NCBI GenBank assembly: GCA_016926595.1 | Contig: JAFGOG010000229.1 | Location: 1 to 15,536 of the forward strand | Direction of reading: 5' to 3' | Source of the DNA: Anaerolineae bacterium | GTDB taxonomy: Bacteria > Chloroflexota > Anaerolineae > JAAYZQ01 | Length of the DNA: 15,536 nt | Shown here: positions 2,604 through 15,536 of the stretch, piece after piece | Layout of the letters: each line of letters begins with the position of its first letter | Position numbering within the stretch: the stretch's first letter is position 1 | Notes under the pieces: generated by a model | Databases searched by the model: none | Seen by the model: only the letters and a program-made list of their open reading frames with translations | What the model was told of the DNA's origin: nothing | Made by a program: the position numbers and the translations under genes

Positions 2604-3494
2604 ATGACCGTCGCACCGGCAGCTTCGCAGGCGCCAAGCTGGAAGGATAGGATACGCCGCAGCCTGGGGTTCCGGATCCTGGTGCTTCTTTCGCCGAGCC
2701 TTTTCTGGCTGATCGTCTTTTTTGTCCTGCCGCTGGTCATCGTCTTTGTTTACAGCTTTCTAAAACGCGGCCCGTACGGCGACATCCGCTGGGAGTTCAA
2801 TCTTCAGAATTACGTCCGCTTTTTCGACCCACTCTACCTGAAGATATTCCTGCGGTCGTTCAAGATCGCAGCCATCACCACCGTGGTCTGCTTTCTGTTA
2901 GGCTATCCCATGGCCTATTGGCTCGCCACCCGGCCAAAAAAGTGGCGCAACACCCTGCTGCTGCTGATCATGATCCCCTTCTGGACCAACTTTTTGATCC
3001 GCACCTACGCCTGGATCCTGATCCTTCAGGACACGGGCCTGGTCAACCAGTTCCTCCTGAACCTGGGGATCATCGGCAAGCCGTTGTCGTTATTCGGCAC
3101 CGAAACCGCGGTCATCATCGGCCTGGTTTACGGTTGGTTCCCAGATATGGTCCTGCCCTGCTACGCCGCGCTGGAGCGCCTCGATTTCTCACTGGTAGAG
3201 GCCGCCGAGGATCTGTATGCCAACGAGTTCCGCGCTTTTCTGCGTGTCATCTTTCCACTCAGCCTGCCGGGCGTCGTAGCTGGTTCGATCCTGGTTTTCG
3301 TGCCATCGCTGGGCGCGTACATCACGTCTGACCTGCTGGGAGGCGCCAAGTCGGTGATGATCGGCAACGTGATCCAGAGCCAGTTCCTCAGCGTGCGCGA
3401 TTATCCTTTCGGTTCGGCCTTTTCCTTTGTGCTGATGGCTATCATGCTGATCGCCACGCTGCTCTATTTCCGCACGGGCGGGCGAACGATGTGA
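2604..3494 (+). CDS. potB: Spermidine/putrescine ABC transporter permease PotB
   Basis: This 296-residue inner-membrane permease forms half of the polyamine channel. It has an N-terminal hydrophobic segment at about 26-52, several further membrane spans (about 84-108, 117-141, 168-188, 222-240 and 270-290), and the cytoplasmic coupling (EAA) loop beginning EAAEDLYANEFRAF at about 199 and ending FPLSLPG, which docks on PotA. The ATG at 2604 follows the potA stop by 14 nt. The upstream ribosome site is weak, so translation may be coupled to potA. PotC follows immediately. Confidence 0.93.
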   Translation: MTVAPAASQAPSWKDRIRRSLGFRILVLLSPSLFWLIVFFVLPLVIVFVYSFLKRGPYGDIRWEFNLQNYVRFFDPLYLKIFLRSFKIAAITTVVCFLLGYPMAYWLATRPKKWRNTLLLLIMIPFWTNFLIRTYAWILILQDTGLVNQFLLNLGIIGKPLSLFGTETAVIIGLVYGWFPDMVLPCYAALERLDFSLVEAAEDLYANEFRAFLRVIFPLSLPGVVAGSILVFVPSLGAYITSDLLGGAKSVMIGNVIQSQFLSVRDYPFGSAFSFVLMAIMLIATLLYFRTGGRTM

Positions 3495-3504
3495 GGGGGC
3501 CGGC

Positions 3505-4359
3505 ATGAGCGTGACAGCAGCAGAAGCACCGCCCCTGAGCCGTGTGGCCCGCCACGGCAGCCGCCTGGGCCAATTGATGCGCGCCTCGTTTGCGGCCAAC
3601 GGCATTTTCGGCTATGTCTTTCTCTACGCGCCGATCGTCGTCCTGGTGGTCTTTTCCTTCAACTCCTCCCGGTTTGTGACCGACTGGTCGGGGTTTAGCC
3701 TGCGCTGGTACAAAGTCATGCTCGGAGATGAGGCGATGATGGCCGCGCTCAAGAATAGCCTGATCGTGGCTGTGATCTCGACCTTTTTCTCGACCATCTT
3801 TGGCACAATGGCCGCCCTGGCCATGGAACGGTACCGGTTCAGGGGCAAGCTCACCATGGATGCCCTGCTCTACCTGCCGATCATCATCCCCGAAATCTCG
3901 ATGGCGGTCATGCTGTTGCTCTTTTTCGTCATGGCCAAGATCAAGCTGGGGCTTGCTACCGTCATCATTTCGCATATAGCTTTCAACATCTCTTTCGTCG
4001 CCATAGTGGTCCGTGCCCGGCTGGCCGGCATGGATCAACGCCTGGAGGAGGCCGCTCAGGATCTGGGCGCCAACGAACTCCAGACGTTCCGGCATGTCAC
4101 CTTTCCGCTCATGATGCCCGGCATCCTGGCCGGCGCGCTGATGGCCTTTACATTGTCGCTGGACGATTTTGTCATTACCTTCTTTACCGCTGGCGTCGGT
4201 TCGACCACACTGCCGCTACGGATCTATTCGATGGTCAAGCTAGGCATTACGCCCGAGATCAATGCCATCTCTACGCTGATGCTCGTGGCTTCGATGACCC
4301 TGGTATTGGTGTCGTTGTTCTTACAGCAGAGAGGGGGCAGCTCGCTCCCTGAGAGGTGA
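3505..4359 (+). CDS. potC: Spermidine/putrescine ABC transporter permease PotC
   Basis: This 284-residue membrane permease is the partner of PotB. Hydrophobic spans lie at about 35-52, 84-106, 120-143, 150-170, 203-228 and 255-275. The EAA loop reads EEAAQDLGANELQTF (from about 181) and continues to FPLMMPG, followed by the LSLDDFVITFF segment characteristic of PotC-type permeases. ATG 3505 has GAGGGGG (3493-3499) 5 nt upstream. Only 10 nt separate it from potB, so the two form one transcriptional unit. Length and motifs are normal. Confidence 0.93.
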   Translation: MSVTAAEAPPLSRVARHGSRLGQLMRASFAANGIFGYVFLYAPIVVLVVFSFNSSRFVTDWSGFSLRWYKVMLGDEAMMAALKNSLIVAVISTFFSTIFGTMAALAMERYRFRGKLTMDALLYLPIIIPEISMAVMLLLFFVMAKIKLGLATVIISHIAFNISFVAIVVRARLAGMDQRLEEAAQDLGANELQTFRHVTFPLMMPGILAGALMAFTLSLDDFVITFFTAGVGSTTLPLRIYSMVKLGITPEINAISTLMLVASMTLVLVSLFLQQRGGSSLPER

Positions 4360-4405
4360 TGTCAAACCGCAACACAAAAACGGTGTAAAAAGAAAGGGAG
4401 GAAAG

Positions 4406-5530
4406 ATGAAAAAGAGATATCTGATGGCGATATTGCTCGTCTGTGTGCTTGTCCTGGCAAGTTGTGGGGCCGAGCCAGAGCCGACCAAGGAACCCACCGC
4501 CCCGACCGCCGTGCCTGCAACGGCCGAGCCAACCGCAACCAGCAAGCCCGAGCTGGCCAAGGAGCTGCACGTCTACAACTGGTCGGAGTATATCGATCCC
4601 CAGATCTACGCCGACTTTGAAGCCGAGTTCGGCGTCAAGGTGATCGAGGATACCTTCGCCAGCAATGAGGACCTGCTGGCCAAGCTGCAGGCTGGGGCTA
4701 CCGGCTATGATGTGATCGTGCCCAGCGACTATATGGTCGAGATTATGATCAACCTCGATCTGCTGTCGCCCCTGAACTATGACAACATCCCCAACTTTAA
4801 GAACATCGGGGCCACCTTCCAGGACCCACCCTACGATCCCGGCAACAAATACTCGGTGCCATATCAATGGGGCACCTCCGGTATCGGCTACGATAGCAAC
4901 GTCTTTGAGGAGCCGCCCGACAGTTGGGCCTACCTGTTTGATCCGGCCCAGGCCAGCCAGTATACGGGCAAGATCAGCATGCTGAACGACAGCCGGGAGA
5001 CGATCGGCGCGGCGCTCAAATACCTGGGCTACTCGCTCAACTCGACCGATCCCGCCCAGTTGGAGGAGGCCAAGCAGCTCCTACTTCAACAGAAGGCGTG
5101 GATCAAGGCTTACGACAGCGAAGCGTTCGAGGATCTGCTGGCCACAGGTGAAACGGCGCTGGCCCACGGCTACAGCGGCGACTTTTTCATGGCGGCGGTG
5201 GAAGCTGAGCAGATCGGATATGCTATTCCTCAAGAGGGGGCTACCATCTGGGCCGACAACCTGTGCATCCCAAAGACGGCCAACAGCCAGTACACCGCCG
5301 AAGTTTTCATCGACTACCTGCTGCGGCCTGAGGTGAGCGCCAAAATCAGCAACTATACCTGGTACGCCAGCCCCAACGACGCGGCCAACGAGTTCATCGA
5401 CGCAGAGATCCTGGAAGACCCGGCCATCTACCCGCCGCCGGAGGTGATGGACAAGCTGGAATTCATCCGCGATGTCGGCGAGGCCACCACGCTCTACGAC
5501 CGGCTCTGGACGGAGATCAAGACGGAGTAG
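4406..5530 (+). CDS. potD: Spermidine/putrescine-binding lipoprotein PotD
   Basis: This 374-residue extracytoplasmic solute-binding protein delivers polyamine to PotBC. A Lys/Arg start and hydrophobic core lead to lipobox LASC, with the lipidated Cys at 20. A Pro/Thr/Ala-rich tether follows up to about residue 50. The mature domain shows the PotD/PotF family landmarks: ELHVYNWSEYI at its start, DVIVPSDYMV, the YQWGTSGIGYDSN hinge segment, the NDSRETIGAALKYLG helix, YSGDFFMA and PQEGATIWADNLCIPKTA. Several of these supply aromatic and acidic ligands in known structures. Strong ribosome site GGGAGG lies just upstream of ATG 4406. It is last of the four transporter genes. The lipoprotein form suits a Gram-positive-like or monoderm envelope. 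Confidence 0.94.
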   Translation: MKKRYLMAILLVCVLVLASCGAEPEPTKEPTAPTAVPATAEPTATSKPELAKELHVYNWSEYIDPQIYADFEAEFGVKVIEDTFASNEDLLAKLQAGATGYDVIVPSDYMVEIMINLDLLSPLNYDNIPNFKNIGATFQDPPYDPGNKYSVPYQWGTSGIGYDSNVFEEPPDSWAYLFDPAQASQYTGKISMLNDSRETIGAALKYLGYSLNSTDPAQLEEAKQLLLQQKAWIKAYDSEAFEDLLATGETALAHGYSGDFFMAAVEAEQIGYAIPQEGATIWADNLCIPKTANSQYTAEVFIDYLLRPEVSAKISNYTWYASPNDAANEFIDAEILEDPAIYPPPEVMDKLEFIRDVGEATTLYDRLWTEIKTE

Positions 5531-5535
5531 AGGCT

Positions 5536-5910
5536 TTGATCCTTCTGAGCCGCGAGGTCTTTGAAGCACTGGTGGACGAGGCTATCAACAGCCTGCCCGA
5601 CGAGGTTCAGACATGGCTCGACAACGTCGCCATCGTCGTTGCCGACAGGCCTTCACCCGAACAGCAGGCGCGCGCCGGTCTGAGACCGGGCAGCCTGCTG
5701 TTCGGCCTGTACGAAGGGGTGCCCAAGACCAAGCGGGGGGTTACCTACGGTGAGGTCGTCCCTGACAAGATCCTGATCTTTCAGCGGCCGACCGAGATGG
5801 TGTGCCGCACACCCGCCCAGGTACGTGACCAGGTACGCCGGACCGTACTACACGAGATCGGCCACCACCTGGGGATGGACGAGGAAGAACTGGAGGATTC
5901 GGGGTACTGA
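5536..5910 (+). CDS. Minimal zincin-like metallopeptidase-family protein (PF06262 type)
   Basis: This 124-residue cytoplasmic protein has no signal peptide. Near the C-terminus it carries the zinc-binding HExxH motif in HEIGHHLGMDEEEL (His106, Glu107, His110), followed by acidic residues that could give the third ligand. The N-terminal SREVFEALVDEAINSLPDE and DNVAIVVADRPS segments match the small 'Zincin_1' family, which is widespread in Actinobacteria and Chloroflexota but whose substrate is unknown. The start is TTG 5536, because no ATG fits the conserved N-terminus. The potential ribosome sites GGAG (5524-5527) and AGAGG (5529-5533) overlap the potD stop. It starts 5 nt after potD and is likely the last gene of that operon. 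Whether it acts as a protease is not shown. Confidence 0.82.
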   Translation: MILLSREVFEALVDEAINSLPDEVQTWLDNVAIVVADRPSPEQQARAGLRPGSLLFGLYEGVPKTKRGVTYGEVVPDKILIFQRPTEMVCRTPAQVRDQVRRTVLHEIGHHLGMDEEELEDSGY

Positions 5911-5955: not shown

Positions 5956-7797
5956 CTAGCCCAAACCGAGCATCGCCAGTCGCTCCTGCGTCGGCACCCC
6001 ATCTGCCGTCCAGCCGCGAGCGTGATAGTATTCCTCCAACAGCAGGGGCTGATCGGGCAGCACACCCGCCGCGCCGCCCGAGGGCCGGGGCTCAGCCAAC
6101 AGCCGCCGGGGCAGAGTGTCATCAGCGCCGGTGACGCCCAGCCGCATGTTGATCAGCCTTTTCAGATTGAACAGCCGCTCACCCATTTGTAGCAGGTCGC
6201 CGGCAGTCCAGCCCCAGCCAAGGGCCACGTTGACCAGGTCGACAATGTGCTGCGGTCCCACCTGGCCCTTGGCGATGAACTTGCACACGCCCAATGGGTT
6301 ATAGACGGATAGGTAATTCTGGAAATCGACTGCCACCTGCCCCTTGCCGGCGCTGTCGTGATCGTCGAACGCTTCAGGGGCGTACCATCCCGGCCAGCGT
6401 ACCCCATAGCCCATCCAGTAGGAAAGGGCCTCCAAGTGGCAGGCGCCCCGATTGGCAGTGGCATAGTTGGCCGCCATGGTGACGAACGCGCGTGGATCGT
6501 GGTAGGCCACTTCCATCCCCTTGACATGAACCGCAAAGGCCTCAGCCCCTTGCCCGATGCGGGCTGCCGCTGCCCGCACCCCATCGGCCAGCAGGCCGGC
6601 AATGCCAGTCTGACCGGCGATGGCGTGAATGGCGCCGATAATCGCCTCGGCGTTGCCCCAGGTCAAATCCAGGCCGCCGGTATCGCGCCGGGAGATCAGG
6701 CCTCGTTCGTAAGCTTCCATGGCAAAGGCGATGGCCGACGAGGTGCTGATCGTATCCAGGCCATAGCGGTTGCACAGATCGTTCATTTGGACAATGGCAT
6801 CCAGGTCGTCGCACTGGCAGTTTCCGCCAAAGCCGGCCAGCGTCTCGTATTCTGGCCCATGGCCGTAGATACCGGCATACGAGCCGTCGGCAATCCGTAC
6901 CGTTTTGCCGCAGCCGATGGGGCAGGCGAAGCAGTGGGTGTGTCGCTCAAAGATCGTCTCAGCGATCCGCTGACCAGTGATGCGCGCCGCTTCCTCCTTC
7001 CAACTGCCCTGCGCCCAGTTCTTGAGCGGCAGGTCGCCGGCTGCTTCCGCCCCGCCCACGCCGCCGGCCGTGCCAAAGCGCGACAGGCCCAGTGAGTTCT
7101 GCTGGATAAACTTGTTGATCTGCTGCACAAAGTCGCGAAAGGCCTTAGGGTCGGGATACTGGGGCTTATCTTGGCCGCGCACGACGATCGCTTTCAGGTT
7201 CTTGGAGCCAAGCAGCGCTCCCATGCCGCCTCGCCCAGCGGTGCGGGTATGACCCTGACCGCCCTGCACGACGTTGGCCAGGCGCACCAACCTCTCGCCA
7301 GCCGGGCCGATGCACGCTACCTGGGCCTTGGAGTCGGTCTCGGCCCGGATCCTTTCGAATGCGTCAAAGTGATCCAGCCCCCAAACCTGTTCAGCAGGCC
7401 GGATTTCCGCCTGGCCGTCGTGGACCCACAAATAGACCGGTTCCGCCGCCCGCCCGGTGACGATCAGGCCGTCGTAGCCGGCAAAGCGCAGCTCAGCGCC
7501 CCAATGGCCGCCCATGTTGGACTCGTTCCAGATGCCGGTCAACGGCGAGCGGCCGCACCACGAGCTGCGGCAGCCGGTCGGCGCAAAGGTGCCGGTGAGC
7601 AGCCCATTGAAGGCCAGCAGCGGGCTAGACGGATCGAGCGGGTCCAGGGCCGGGTCCATCTCCTCGAAAAAGATCTTGGCCGCCAGTCCGCTGCCCAACA
7701 GGTATGAGCGCAGGTCATCGTCGGCTATGGGCTCGTCGCGCTGTTGGCCTGTGGTCAAATCGATCCGCAGCAGCCTGCCTGCATTAGTGTATGGCAT
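5956..7797 (-). CDS. Aldehyde ferredoxin oxidoreductase-family (tungsten/molybdenum pterin) enzyme
   Basis: This 613-residue protein is the full length for the AOR family. These enzymes bind a bis-pterin tungsten (or molybdenum) centre and one [4Fe-4S] cluster. They typically oxidise aldehydes to acids with ferredoxin, or catalyse related low-potential steps, in the cytoplasm of anaerobes. The cluster ligands are visible as CFACPIGC (Cys289, Cys292, Cys296) and Cys505 in PLGVCKF, spaced as in known AORs. Pterin-binding landmarks include GRGGMGALLGSKNLKAIVV (188-206) and LDTISTSSAIAFAMEAYE (348-365). The ATG at 7797 has GAGGAGG (7810-7804) 6 nt upstream. It is the last gene of the minus-strand unit. 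The substrate is not determinable: the family includes AOR, FOR, GAPOR and BamB-like members, and the BamB assignment is not supported. Confidence 0.92.
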   Translation of the reverse strand: MPYTNAGRLLRIDLTTGQQRDEPIADDDLRSYLLGSGLAAKIFFEEMDPALDPLDPSSPLLAFNGLLTGTFAPTGCRSSWCGRSPLTGIWNESNMGGHWGAELRFAGYDGLIVTGRAAEPVYLWVHDGQAEIRPAEQVWGLDHFDAFERIRAETDSKAQVACIGPAGERLVRLANVVQGGQGHTRTAGRGGMGALLGSKNLKAIVVRGQDKPQYPDPKAFRDFVQQINKFIQQNSLGLSRFGTAGGVGGAEAAGDLPLKNWAQGSWKEEAARITGQRIAETIFERHTHCFACPIGCGKTVRIADGSYAGIYGHGPEYETLAGFGGNCQCDDLDAIVQMNDLCNRYGLDTISTSSAIAFAMEAYERGLISRRDTGGLDLTWGNAEAIIGAIHAIAGQTGIAGLLADGVRAAAARIGQGAEAFAVHVKGMEVAYHDPRAFVTMAANYATANRGACHLEALSYWMGYGVRWPGWYAPEAFDDHDSAGKGQVAVDFQNYLSVYNPLGVCKFIAKGQVGPQHIVDLVNVALGWGWTAGDLLQMGERLFNLKRLINMRLGVTGADDTLPRRLLAEPRPSGGAAGVLPDQPLLLEEYYHARGWTADGVPTQERLAMLGLG

Positions 7798-7866
7798 CTT
7801 TTTCCTCCTCAGTTACGGCCTTGTGTTATAGTCAAGAGTCGATCCCTCATCACGTCAGCGCCGGAT

Positions 7867-7965
7867 TCAAGCGGGCTGCGCCGGCCGAGGCTGGGGTTCA
7901 GGCGCCTCACGATCTGAGCGGAACTGAACTATGGCGCCCACGACCGGCAGGTTGCTTGTGGTCAT
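7867..7965 (-). CDS. Hypothetical 32-residue small protein between activase and AOR genes
   Basis: This is a short ORF from ATG 7965 to TGA 7867. It is preceded by a near-ideal ribosome site GGAGGGG (7977-7971) with a 5-nt spacer. The predicted peptide starts MTTSNLPVVGAIVQF, a short hydrophobic stretch, then a charged SDRE segment and a tail in which Pro alternates with Glu, Gln, Arg and Ala. It lies 33 nt after the activase stop and 69 nt before the AOR start, both on the same strand. I recognise no family. The strong ribosome site in an otherwise gene-free gap is the main support. It could instead be a leader peptide or a chance ORF. Confidence 0.4.
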   Translation of the reverse strand: MTTSNLPVVGAIVQFRSDREAPEPQPRPAQPA

Positions 7966-7998
7966 CTCTTCCCCTCCAAAGGCGCTATGTCTGACAGA

Positions 7999-8754
7999 TC
8001 ATCCTGGCCCGGCGGCGTGCAGCGCCGCGCCCAGCGCCCCGACGATCTGCGGATCATCGGGCACGTAGACCGGCACGCCCAGCGCTTCAGCGAAAAGCTG
8101 CCGCAGGCAGAGGTTGAGCGCCACGCCGCCGGCAAAAATGAACCTCTCGTGCACGCCGACACGCCGGACCATGCCCCCAACCCGGTTGACAATGGCCCAA
8201 TGCAGGCCCAGGGCCACGCGCCGGCTGTCCTCGCCCCTGGCGACTAGCGACACTACCTCCGACTCGGCAAAAACGGTACACATGCTGGAAATGCTCACTG
8301 CTCGACCGCCGGCTTTCAGTGCGTGCGGCCCCAGATCCTCGACAGCCATCCCCAGCGCGTGGGCCATATTCTCCAGGAAGCGGCCCGTCCCGGCGGCGCA
8401 GCGATCGTTCATCTCAAAGCGCAGCACCCGCCCGCCGGGGCCGACCTCGATGGCCTTGCTGTCCTGGCCGCCAATGTCCAGCACCGTGCCGACGTCGGGG
8501 TAGATGTGATATGCGCCCAGGCCGTAGGCCTTGATCTCGGAGATCACCTCGCCGGCCAGCTCGCGTTCGGCGGCCAGGTTGCGCCCATAGCCGGTGGCCA
8601 CCAGCCGGTCGTAAGTGCGACCCACGATCAGCGCCCGCGCATTGCCCAACGGATCGTTGCCGGTATCGACCACGACCGACCGCACGATCTGCATCCCGTC
8701 CCACTCGACCAGGGCGATGGTCCGGGAACCGATGTCGAGCCCTGCTACGAGCAT
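7999..8754 (-). CDS. Acyl-CoA dehydratase activase-type ATPase (HgdC/BadF/BcrA family)
   Basis: This is a 251-residue ASKHA-fold ATPase. Family members form a homodimer bridging one [4Fe-4S] cluster and use ATP to push one low-potential electron into a partner enzyme. Visible motifs are phosphate-1 GLDIGSRT (5-12), DIGGQDSK (93-100), the cluster Cys in NDRCAAGTG (Cys119), the second cluster Cys in SSMCTVFAESE (Cys159), and adenosine-site FAGGVALN (207-214). ATG 8754 gives the family-typical MLVAGLDIGS start. A TTG at 8763 overlaps the cupin stop but lacks a ribosome site. Single-domain length suits the HgdC type. No 2-hydroxyacyl-CoA dehydratase, benzoyl-CoA reductase or double-cubane partner is encoded in the window, so the target is unknown; the AOR downstream is only a neighbour by evidence. 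Confidence 0.9.
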   Translation of the reverse strand: MLVAGLDIGSRTIALVEWDGMQIVRSVVVDTGNDPLGNARALIVGRTYDRLVATGYGRNLAAERELAGEVISEIKAYGLGAYHIYPDVGTVLDIGGQDSKAIEVGPGGRVLRFEMNDRCAAGTGRFLENMAHALGMAVEDLGPHALKAGGRAVSISSMCTVFAESEVVSLVARGEDSRRVALGLHWAIVNRVGGMVRRVGVHERFIFAGGVALNLCLRQLFAEALGVPVYVPDDPQIVGALGAALHAAGPG

Positions 8755-8759
8755 AGCCT

Positions 8760-9110
8760 TCAACCGGTTACCGGCTCAACCGCCAGGTAGATCGTCAACT
8801 GCGGAAAGACCAGCCGGAACGGCTTGCCGGCAGCCAGCACTGCGGATTCCCCCTGGCTGAGGTAGCTCACCTCTTCTGAGGGGTCAGAGATCTCGACCCG
8901 GCCATCCAGGATCCACAACAGGCGATCATGGGCGACCGCCTGCGGCTTGTCGCTCATCGGTCCATAACCGGCGGCGATTAGCGCCCGGCAGCCGTTCATC
9001 GGCCCCATCTCCAGGCGGACATTGGCGGTGCCCCCGCCGAGCACCCGGCCGGCGGTCATCTTGCGCACCTTCTTTTTGAGCTGTTCGATATCCGTCACTG
9101 TTAGCTGCAC
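8760..9110 (-). CDS. EutQ-like cupin-domain protein
   Basis: This 116-residue protein starts at GTG 9110, chosen because GGAGGG (9120-9115) lies 4 nt upstream. Extending it 17 residues further would add a Pro/Trp-rich stretch unlike the family and cover the ribosome site. After a short helical N-terminus (TDIEQLKKKVRKM) comes GRVLGGGTANVRLEMG, then a single cupin barrel with AHDRLLWILDGRVEI as its central strands and LSQGESAVLAAGKP as the second motif. This resembles the C-terminal domain of EutQ (DUF861/cupin_3), which in ethanolamine utilisation binds a small ligand or acts as an acetate-kinase-like factor. Most classical metal-binding His residues are missing. Its stop lies 5 nt before the activase ATG, so the genes are translationally linked. 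Confidence 0.75.
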   Translation of the reverse strand: MQLTVTDIEQLKKKVRKMTAGRVLGGGTANVRLEMGPMNGCRALIAAGYGPMSDKPQAVAHDRLLWILDGRVEISDPSEEVSYLSQGESAVLAAGKPFRLVFPQLTIYLAVEPVTG

Positions 9111-9178
9111 AGGTCCCTCCCACAAAAAGACCGTGGGCCATGGCCAAGGGCCAGCCCTCACGCCTATCCGGCGGACCG

Positions 9179-11544: not shown

Positions 11545-12648
11545 ATGCAGATCCTGGCCGTTGACATTGGCACCGGCACGCAGGACGTGCTGCTGTTCGA
11601 CACCGACAAGGAGCCGGAGAATGCTCTGAAGCTGGTCATGCCCTCGCCAACCATGCTGCTGGCTCAGGCGATCCGGGCTACCACCCATGACGGCCAGGAC
11701 CTGCTGCTGACCGGGGTGACGATGGGCGGCGGGCCGTGCAGTTGGGCCGCCGAGGATCACCTAAAGGCAGGCGGGCGAGTGTTTGCCACGCCCGACGCTG
11801 CCCGCACCTTCAACGACGACCTGAACGAAGTTGCGGCCATCGGCGTGCAGATCGTCGACGAGGAACAGGCGGCTGGCCTGCCGGGCATCCGCCGCCTGGT
11901 GATGAGGGACCTGGACTATAATGCGCTGGCCTGCGCCTATGGCGCCTTTGGCCTCGATCTTGACCGGGTCGACGCGCTGGCTGTGGCCGTCTTTGACCAC
12001 GGCGCCGCGCCGCCCGGCGTCAGCGACCGGCTCTTCCGCTTCGGATACCTAGCCGAGCGCATCCGTGACGGATCAGGCCTGGCTGGCTTTGCCTTTCCGC
12101 GGGAAGCGATCCCGGCCAGTATGACCCGCCTGCAGGCCGCGGCTTCCAGTGCGCCGGCAGGCCGGCCCGTGGTGGTGATGGACACCGCCCCAGCGGCCGT
12201 GCTCGGCGCGTTAGAAGACCCCCAGGTCGGCAGTCGTGAGGAGGTGATCATCGCCAACGTGGGCAACTTGCACACCCTGGCTTTTCACCTGCGCCGGGGG
12301 AACATCGCCGGGCTGTTTGAGCACCACACCGGCAAGCTCAGCCAAGCGCAGTTGGAAGAGCTGCTGGTCCGCCTTGCCGCCGGCACCCTATCGAACGACG
12401 AGGTATTTGCAGATCATGGCCATGGAGCGCTGATCGTCGACCGGTCGTCTGCCCAGCCTGACGCACTATGGGTGGCCGTCACCGGCCCGCGCCGAAGGCT
12501 GCTGGCCGGATCAAAGCTAAAACCCTACCTGGCGGCGCCCCATGGCGACATGATGATGACCGGCTGCTGGGGACTGATCCGGGCATGCGCCTACCACCTG
12601 CCGTGGACAGCAGGAGCAATCGACGGGGCGCTGCGGCAGGGGTTATGA
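11545..12648 (+). CDS. DUF1786 (COG4012) family protein with ASKHA-like N-terminus
   Basis: This 367-residue cytoplasmic protein starts MQILAVDIGTGTQDVLLFD, which resembles the phosphate-1 loop of the actin/sugar-kinase/Hsp70 superfamily and is the hallmark of DUF1786. Other conserved-looking blocks are TMGGGPCSWA (about residues 58-67), VAVFDHGAAPPGVSDR (about 147-162), VIIANVGNLHTLAF (about 234-247), FEHHTGKL (about 256-263) and TGCWGLIRA near the end. Members are often labelled 'putative pyruvate formate-lyase activating enzyme', but this protein lacks a radical-SAM CxxxCxxC motif, so that label is not supported. ATG 11545 has AGAGGA 4 nt upstream. It has its own promoter and overlaps the convergent methyltransferase gene by 6 bp at its 3' end. 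Function unknown; ATP binding is a reasonable inference. Confidence 0.8.
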   Translation: MQILAVDIGTGTQDVLLFDTDKEPENALKLVMPSPTMLLAQAIRATTHDGQDLLLTGVTMGGGPCSWAAEDHLKAGGRVFATPDAARTFNDDLNEVAAIGVQIVDEEQAAGLPGIRRLVMRDLDYNALACAYGAFGLDLDRVDALAVAVFDHGAAPPGVSDRLFRFGYLAERIRDGSGLAGFAFPREAIPASMTRLQAAASSAPAGRPVVVMDTAPAAVLGALEDPQVGSREEVIIANVGNLHTLAFHLRRGNIAGLFEHHTGKLSQAQLEELLVRLAAGTLSNDEVFADHGHGALIVDRSSAQPDALWVAVTGPRRRLLAGSKLKPYLAAPHGDMMMTGCWGLIRACAYHLPWTAGAIDGALRQGL

Positions 12649-15071: not shown

Positions 15072-15100
15072 TTGACACCCACGCCGCGAAACCATATAAT
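15072..15100 (+). promoter_or_regulatory. Perfect-consensus sigma70 promoter of the OsmC-like gene
   Basis: TTGACA (15072-15077), a 17-nt spacer and TATAAT (15095-15100) match the consensus at all positions. Six nucleotides separate the -10 box from GTG 15107, so transcription should begin at or beside the start codon. This predicts strong, housekeeping-sigma expression of a leaderless mRNA. Confidence 0.85.
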
Positions 15101-15106
15101 GGCGTT

Positions 15107-15536
15107 GTGGACGATTCAACGCTGATCAACCGCGTCACGACGACCTACCTGGGCGACAACCGGGTATCGATTTCCGCGATCGGCTCTGAGAATCGCGACC
15201 GCCACTTTGTGGCAGATCAGCGGACCCACCTCGACCACGCGGGCGCCGGGTTTTGCCCCCTGGAGCTGGTGGCTGCCGCGCTGGGCGCTTGAATGGCGCT
15301 GACCATGGCGGCGGTCGCCGCCAACAAGGGGATAACACTCGGCAGGCTGGCCGTTTCAGTGGAAAGCCGCACCGAACTTGCCGACCGCAAGGCCGCCACC
15401 GTCTTTACCAGCCGCGTGGAATTGGACAAAGGGCTCACCGCGCGCGAACGGCGCATCCTGTTCAATTCAGCCCGCCTGTGCGAGGTGCACAAAATGCTGC
15501 GGGGCGAGATCACCTTCGAGGAAGAGATCACGGAAG
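15107..15536 (+). CDS. OsmC-family thiol peroxidase-like selenoprotein with in-frame TGA as Sec62 (3' truncated by window)
   Basis: OsmC/Ohr proteins are cytoplasmic dimers that reduce organic hydroperoxides through a peroxidatic and a resolving cysteine. Here the frame from GTG 15107 gives an OsmC-like N-terminal half (TTTYLGDNRVSISA, HFVADQRTHLDHAGAG, PLELVAAALGA). It then meets TGA at codon 62, exactly where the family has the peroxidatic Cys after LGA/LGS. The same frame continues without another stop for at least 81 codons: MALTMAAVAANKGITL, the TFSRVELDKGLT-like strand (here VFTSRVELDKG), then SARLCEVHKML with the second Cys at 125, as expected of the resolving Cys. A SECIS-like hairpin follows the TGA. 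Together this indicates selenocysteine. OsmC-like selenoproteins are known from bioinformatic surveys. An extra Cys50 precedes PLEL. There is no ribosome site, because the mRNA seems leaderless. A pseudogene or sequence error is less likely. Confidence 0.85.
15306..15323 (+). promoter_or_regulatory. Candidate bacterial SECIS element
   Basis: Following the TGA (15290-15292), TGGCGGC pairs perfectly with GCCGCCA over 7 bp around the tetraloop GGTC (15313-15316). The loop begins 20 nt after the TGA, close to the spacing in the E. coli fdhF element, whose loop also contains GGUC and is bound by SelB. It is translated as part of the OsmC-like frame, as bacterial SECIS elements are. Confidence 0.75.

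Follow-up and report, generated by a model that had tools for sequence, protein, structure and literature searches.

A predicted OsmC-like selenoprotein with selenocysteine at the active-site position in an Anaerolineae contig

The stretch of DNA considered here, called the window in the following, comprises 15,536 nucleotides of contig JAFGOG010000229.1 from an Anaerolineae bacterium. At its 3' end lies a gene for an OsmC-like protein, which starts with GTG and runs off the contig. The frame of this gene contains a single stop codon, a TGA that directly follows the residues PLELVAAALGA, and a hairpin is found shortly after this codon (Table 1). As proposed in an original prediction made from the letters alone, the TGA can be read as selenocysteine (Sec). 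On the basis of the conserved TGA, the Cys found in the same column, the conservation on both sides, the OsmC fold, the covariation in the hairpin and the presence of Sec machinery in the majority of the relatives tested, we conclude with high confidence that the locus encodes one OsmC-fold selenoprotein with Sec62 at its active site.

Table 1. Positions of the features discussed in the text.
Feature	Position	Strand	Observation
Predicted OsmC-like selenoprotein gene, GTG start	15107..15535	+	143 residues seen, 3' end off the contig
TGA codon 62, predicted to be read as Sec	15290..15292	+	TGA in 16/16 Sec-type loci; the Cys orthologue has TGC
Cys50 codon, CPxEL	15254..15256	+	Cys in 16/16 full-length rows
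Cys125 codon TGC, predicted resolving Cys	15479..15481	+	Cys in 16/16 full-length rows
bSECIS-like hairpin, 7 bp	15306..15323	+	core 15307-15312 / 15317-15322, loop GGUC 15313-15316, 20 nt past the TGA
Covarying central pair	15310 with 15319	+	wobble positions of two Ala codons; three pair types
Consensus sigma-70 promoter TTGACA-N17-TATAAT	15072..15100	+	12/12 matches; 2 sites in the region vs 0.3 expected
LysR regulator, selenium metabolism-associated type NF040786	9346..10251	+	261.5 bits vs cut-off 250

The reading frame and its relatives

The original prediction described a frame that is OsmC-like on both sides of the TGA, and the Pfam family OsmC (PF02566) indeed matches the read-through protein across this codon, over residues 46-139 (3e-14). 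With a score above the cut-off of 27.5, and with an OsmC fold in the predicted structure (predicted local distance difference test, pLDDT, of 86), the read-through protein belongs to this family. In the structure model, the TGA-encoded residue is located inside a predicted helix formed by residues 51-74. The second redox Cys is intact 63 codons past the TGA, as had been claimed, in the form of Cys125 in SARLCEVHKML. The C-terminus is incomplete because the window stops at 15536; 81 residues follow the TGA here, compared to 83, i.e. 2 more, in the closest database relatives.

Homologues with a TGA at the same codon were sought and found in 15 genomes, which together with the window gives 16 Sec-type loci at the DNA level, beside one Cys locus at that level. 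A scan of genome contigs gave seven loci, each with TGA at the codon and each from a metagenome-assembled genome (MAG) that carries the name Chloroflexi, Chloroflexota, Anaerolineae or Anaerolineales. In the class of one relative, G001, a match at 1e-6 is found in 19 of 396 genomes; 15 of these have one TGA (including those seven) and four lack a stop. Among the latter, G048 is an orthologue with TGC at the Sec codon, and G057, G146 and G248 are distant matches with 31-36% identity. In a sample of the phylum, 6 of 400 genomes match, the sole one with a TGA being G001 itself; the order of G001 is represented by G001 and G002 only and provides no further loci. Viral contigs gave 32 pattern matches, with no relative among them.

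The full-length alignment consists of 15 TGA rows and one Cys row, G126 being omitted because its start is unclear. The motif U62-x-x-x-T66 is common to every aligned row, and both redox positions, Sec/Cys62 and Cys125, are kept in all 16. Candidates for the catalytic Glu and Arg of the Ohr/OsmC thiol peroxidases are Glu53, present in all 16 rows and nine residues ahead of Sec62 (in XfOhr, Glu51 is 10 ahead of Cys61), and position 39, which is Arg in 13 rows, Lys in two and Gly in one. The TGA was said to occupy exactly the peroxidatic Cys position, and the orthologues do have either TGA or Cys in this column, with TGA in all 16 Sec-type loci. A search with the G048 protein returned eight proteins, all eight with Cys in the Sec column, and Cys is the only sense residue found there.

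The frame is open apart from one stop and lies at the end of a contig, which could also point to a sequencing error or to a decaying gene. However, the same TGA occurs in 16/16 loci of separate genomes, and the ratio of nonsynonymous to synonymous substitution rates (dN/dS), calculated for six pairs, is 0.05-0.31 upstream of the TGA and 0.05-0.45 downstream of it. Instead of decayed downstream frames, conserved frames under purifying selection are found past the TGA in six pairs out of six. In view of the shared TGA and of this selection, error and decay are already contradicted and have a negligible probability.

A tree was calculated for 15 Sec and eight Cys rows, leaving out P0122, which is 99% identical to the G048 query. 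The Sec and Cys labels each need one change on this tree. G077 is the Sec member that branches with the Cys clade (support 96/98), and the window clusters with G001 and G002 (100/99). The tree is unrooted and can be read with the Sec/Cys change in either direction. With a Cys clade adjoining one Sec member, the pair is usable for asking why Sec is retained.

In a search of 5.8 billion proteins, 210 homologues were found at an E-value of 1e-3 or better. Among the 120 that were listed, which include the window's own fragment, 119 start with M-x-L-T straight after the TGA codon, and P0040 starts four residues later; their lengths range from 78 to 100 residues. From these start positions we infer that a TGA also precedes the metagenome homologues. 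The original prediction expected annotation to record a 61-residue fragment and a second open reading frame. As a correction to this, it is the second frame, with some 81 residues past the TGA, that is kept in the databases. As the listed homologues are stored in this shortened form, their entries lack both the active-site residue and the sequence N-terminal to it. The group, from uncultured Chloroflexota-type bacteria, is a sizeable addition to the known selenoprotein subfamilies.

The hairpin and the selenocysteine machinery

The region after the TGA was compared in 16 sequences, which are gap-free over 51 columns counted from the TGA. The main helix is formed by columns 18-23 with 28-33, and its loop is GGUC except in G002 (GGUU) and G077 (AGUU). 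The central pair 21-30, at third positions of two Ala codons, is of Watson-Crick type in all 16 sequences (10 G-C, 5 U-A and 1 A-U), and it is broken in the Cys orthologue, which has T-T. The sole Cys gene seen at the DNA level has thus lost the central pair of the hairpin, which bears on the question of why Sec is retained. Changes on both sides occur in three of the six pairs of the main helix, and 91.1% of its cells pair. A first small helix ahead of it (columns 4-8/13-17) is without covariation.

Rules for the bacterial selenocysteine insertion sequence (bSECIS) are given in the legend of Fig. 2 of PMC13188914: a loop of 3-9 nt with G within its first two positions, a stem of 4-16 bp, a distance of 16-37 nt from the TGA, and a minimum free energy of -7.5 or lower. 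The window satisfies them with -13.3, 7 bp, GGUC and 20 nt. They are passed by 11 of the 16 TGA loci and by 404 of 4148 control codons, and the Cys locus fails. The SelD genes of five TGA genomes have a GGCGCAGGU-type hairpin past their TGA. An Rfam scan of the window gave 0 matches.

It is important to point out that several results weigh against the selenoprotein assignment. Five of the 16 loci (G001, G002, G007, G013 and G145) fail the published energy limit, and in the window the hairpin is not lower in energy than synonymous shuffles, the fraction as stable being 0.22 (0.04-0.65 across the 16 TGA loci). As folding energy alone is thus no evidence, the case for the hairpin is carried by the covariation, for which the permutation p value of 2.5e-5 at pair 21-30 ignores the relatedness of the sequences. 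Concerning the machinery, the counts below were taken on the genomes of the 15 TGA relatives, the window's own genome being outside them; tRNA-Sec was not found in four of these (G003, G004, G005 and G126) with ARAGORN or with BLAST using the tRNA-Sec of G013; and SelA is present in 318 of the 396 genomes of the class, so that its presence says little about the OsmC-like gene.

The genes for Sec synthesis and insertion, selA, selB, selD and selC, are nevertheless present in most of the relatives tested. A tRNA-Sec with anticodon TCA was called by ARAGORN in 11/15 TGA genomes and in G048; only these tRNA-SeC(tca) calls were counted, because the Rfam model RF01852 also matches tRNA-Ser and tRNA-Leu at 48-50 bits. 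SelB is above the cut-off in 11/15 (5/7 in a first round and 6/9 in a second), with partial matches in G002 and G004 and none at 1e-40 in G077 and G126. SelA is found in 14/15, the match in G007 starting at the first base of a contig, and SelD is above the cut-off in 6/7 genomes tested, with a TGA-bearing copy in each. Since the genomes, MAGs among them, are of unknown completeness, the absences of sel genes are weak. Outside the OsmC-like gene itself, the selenium-type LysR gene of the window is supporting evidence.

Two side observations belong here. The four genomes without a recognisable tRNA-Sec do carry the TGA gene, which could reflect assembly gaps or a divergent tRNA-Sec. In G002 there are two SelD matches (L051 and L058), one in a 770-residue open frame without TGA and the other with TGA.

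These data also bear on the scenario in which TGA is read as some other residue, through a changed code or general read-through. Beyond the open frame itself nothing speaks for it. TGA terminates 9 of the 15 genes of the window and is thus not reassigned, Cys is the only sense residue in the column, and tRNA-Sec with the matching anticodon occurs in the majority of the relatives. This scenario is extremely improbable. Another option is that the UGA is a true stop and that re-initiation at the next codon, which is ATG in 13 of the 16 loci, yields the downstream part as a separate polypeptide. However, in G126 and G145 this next codon is ATC, in G077 it is ATA, and relatives have an unbroken frame with Cys at the TGA codon. 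Moreover, the TGA falls exactly on the active-site residue within the predicted helix, and the hairpin covaries. Two polypeptides are therefore very unlikely.

Predicted chemistry and gene neighbourhood

We now turn our attention to the function of the selenoprotein. In the proposed mechanism, SelB and Sec-tRNA would decode UGA62 as Sec, aided by the hairpin 20 nt downstream. This would place Sec62 at the peroxidatic Cys position of OsmC/Ohr, with the resolving Cys125 retained. A peroxide would be reduced at Sec62, resolution could take place by Cys125, perhaps with the participation of Cys50, and a lipoylated carrier such as GcvH would re-reduce the protein.

The neighbouring genes, with LplA located by tblastn and 17 loci counted, tie Sec to lipoyl-dependent redox chemistry. 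An LplA-type lipoate ligase is encoded upstream on the same strand in 9/17 loci (PF21948 in the G008 copy), and GcvH is upstream in 5/17 (G005, G006, G032, G073 and G145; PF01597 verified in G006 and G145). LplA and/or GcvH is near the OsmC-like gene in 11/17 loci and was not found in G001, G002, G126 and G048, nor on the 3.5 kb contig of G004. These counts are not independent, since G006/G032 and G008/G073 are near relatives. The Ohr and OsmC relatives are, according to PMC4069020, peroxidases, and Ohr is re-reduced by lipoylated proteins. Together with the neighbour counts, this leads us to propose a lipoyl-dependent Sec peroxidase, to which we give about even chances. Two results speak against it: the protein scores 23.9 bits in the OsmC peroxiredoxin subfamily TIGR03562, which has a cut-off of 85.8, and lies outside that subfamily, and no lipoyl gene is near the window's copy, where the 15 kb before the gene and nothing after it are available. 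PMC4069020 names the YhfA branch of the superfamily as an exception to thiol-peroxidase activity. Of the hydroperoxide reductase with Sec62 and Cys125 in the original prediction, the two positions thus stand, and the function label is kept as a putative one on account of the low score and the YhfA exception.

The main alternative is that the selenoprotein is no peroxidase, and instead a thiol/disulfide oxidoreductase linked to an Hdr/MvhD module via lipoyl-GcvH. The G145 locus runs from an HdrA-like part through MvhD/FlpD, a 4Fe-4S protein, an NAD-binding oxidoreductase, GcvH and LplA to OsmC, so that GcvH and LplA stand between the Sec gene and the redox module. In G002 and G005, MvhD/FlpD and a TGA-bearing HdrA-like frame are located upstream of the Sec gene, and Cys50 and the low subfamily scores fit a plain Ohr/OsmC protein poorly. 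On the other hand, HdrA is near the OsmC-like gene in only 3/17 loci, and the Ohr and OsmC relatives treated in PMC4069020 are peroxidases reduced by lipoylated proteins. We regard this alternative as possible, though rather unlikely. More speculative still is a scheme in which Cys50, Sec62 and Cys125 would form a three-centre site acting as the terminal reductase of a lipoyl-GcvH relay. In some members, electrons would enter this relay from a module of Hdr/MvhD and NAD(P)H oxidoreductase, with HdrA as a further selenoprotein. If true, the scheme would describe a peroxide/disulfide detoxification chain of anaerobes with selenium at both ends.

The HdrA-like frames in L002 (about 3339-5900) and L005 (1492-3459) have an in-frame TGA and are split by plain open reading frame calls. 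The hairpin past this TGA shares the GGUC loop and has another stem, and the frames, just upstream of the Sec gene, are probably a second selenoprotein. Sec-containing HdrA is a known kind.

OsmC-like selenoproteins as such have been known since 2005, and their discovery in genome surveys, to which the original prediction referred, is borne out by the literature: passages of PMC1088965 describe three sequences from the Sargasso Sea with the motif UxxT, passages of PMC2398784 five from the GOS survey, and tables of PMC9312934 and PMC13188914 include them as well. The marine proteins (COG1765 / PF02566) resemble the present one in belonging to the OsmC superfamily, in having Sec where the active-site Cys would be and in using a bacterial SECIS. 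They have UxxT as compared to UxxxT here, a distinction that relies on the described motif, without direct alignment, and they number three and five in sea water, whereas here a large group occurs in Chloroflexota-type MAGs. For the family NF041052, OsmC-related (seleno)protein, the similarity is weak, 24.9 bits versus a cut-off of 95, which places the protein outside it. None of 16 genomes reaches this cut-off, and Cys-type OsmC paralogues in them score equal or higher (up to 44 bits). Judged by sequence, the UxxxT/Cys50 group is a distinct subfamily, far below the NF041052 cut-off. No title or abstract opening on this group was found in a collection of open-access selenoprotein literature (OsmC, SECIS, Chloroflexi, Anaerolineae).

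With the Ohr/OsmC lipoyl-dependent thiol peroxidases the protein shares the fold, the residue at the peroxidatic position and the resolving Cys, together with the lipoyl genes near most of the loci; it differs in having Sec for Cys and the extra invariant Cys50. A study of the Trichomonas hydrogenosome, cited in PMC10332631, reportedly deals, going by its title, with OsmC and an incomplete glycine decarboxylase complex. There, again by title, OsmC would be accompanied by a GcvH-type lipoyl protein, in a eukaryotic organelle, unlike here.

Promoter and other genes of the window

Because the GTG is only 7 nt past the end of the consensus promoter (15072-15109 for the two together), the mRNA of the OsmC-like gene may be leaderless. 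Upstream of the L001 copy, TTGACA-N16-TATAAT can be recognised by eye.

Elsewhere in the window, a 367-residue protein (11545-12648) matches DUF1786, described in Pfam as a putative pyruvate formate-lyase activating enzyme, and has no NCBIfam match. On the minus strand, positions 5956-9161 encode an aldehyde:ferredoxin oxidoreductase, an ATPase resembling acyl-CoA dehydratase activases and an unnamed protein of 133 residues, and these genes adjoin the selenium-type LysR gene.
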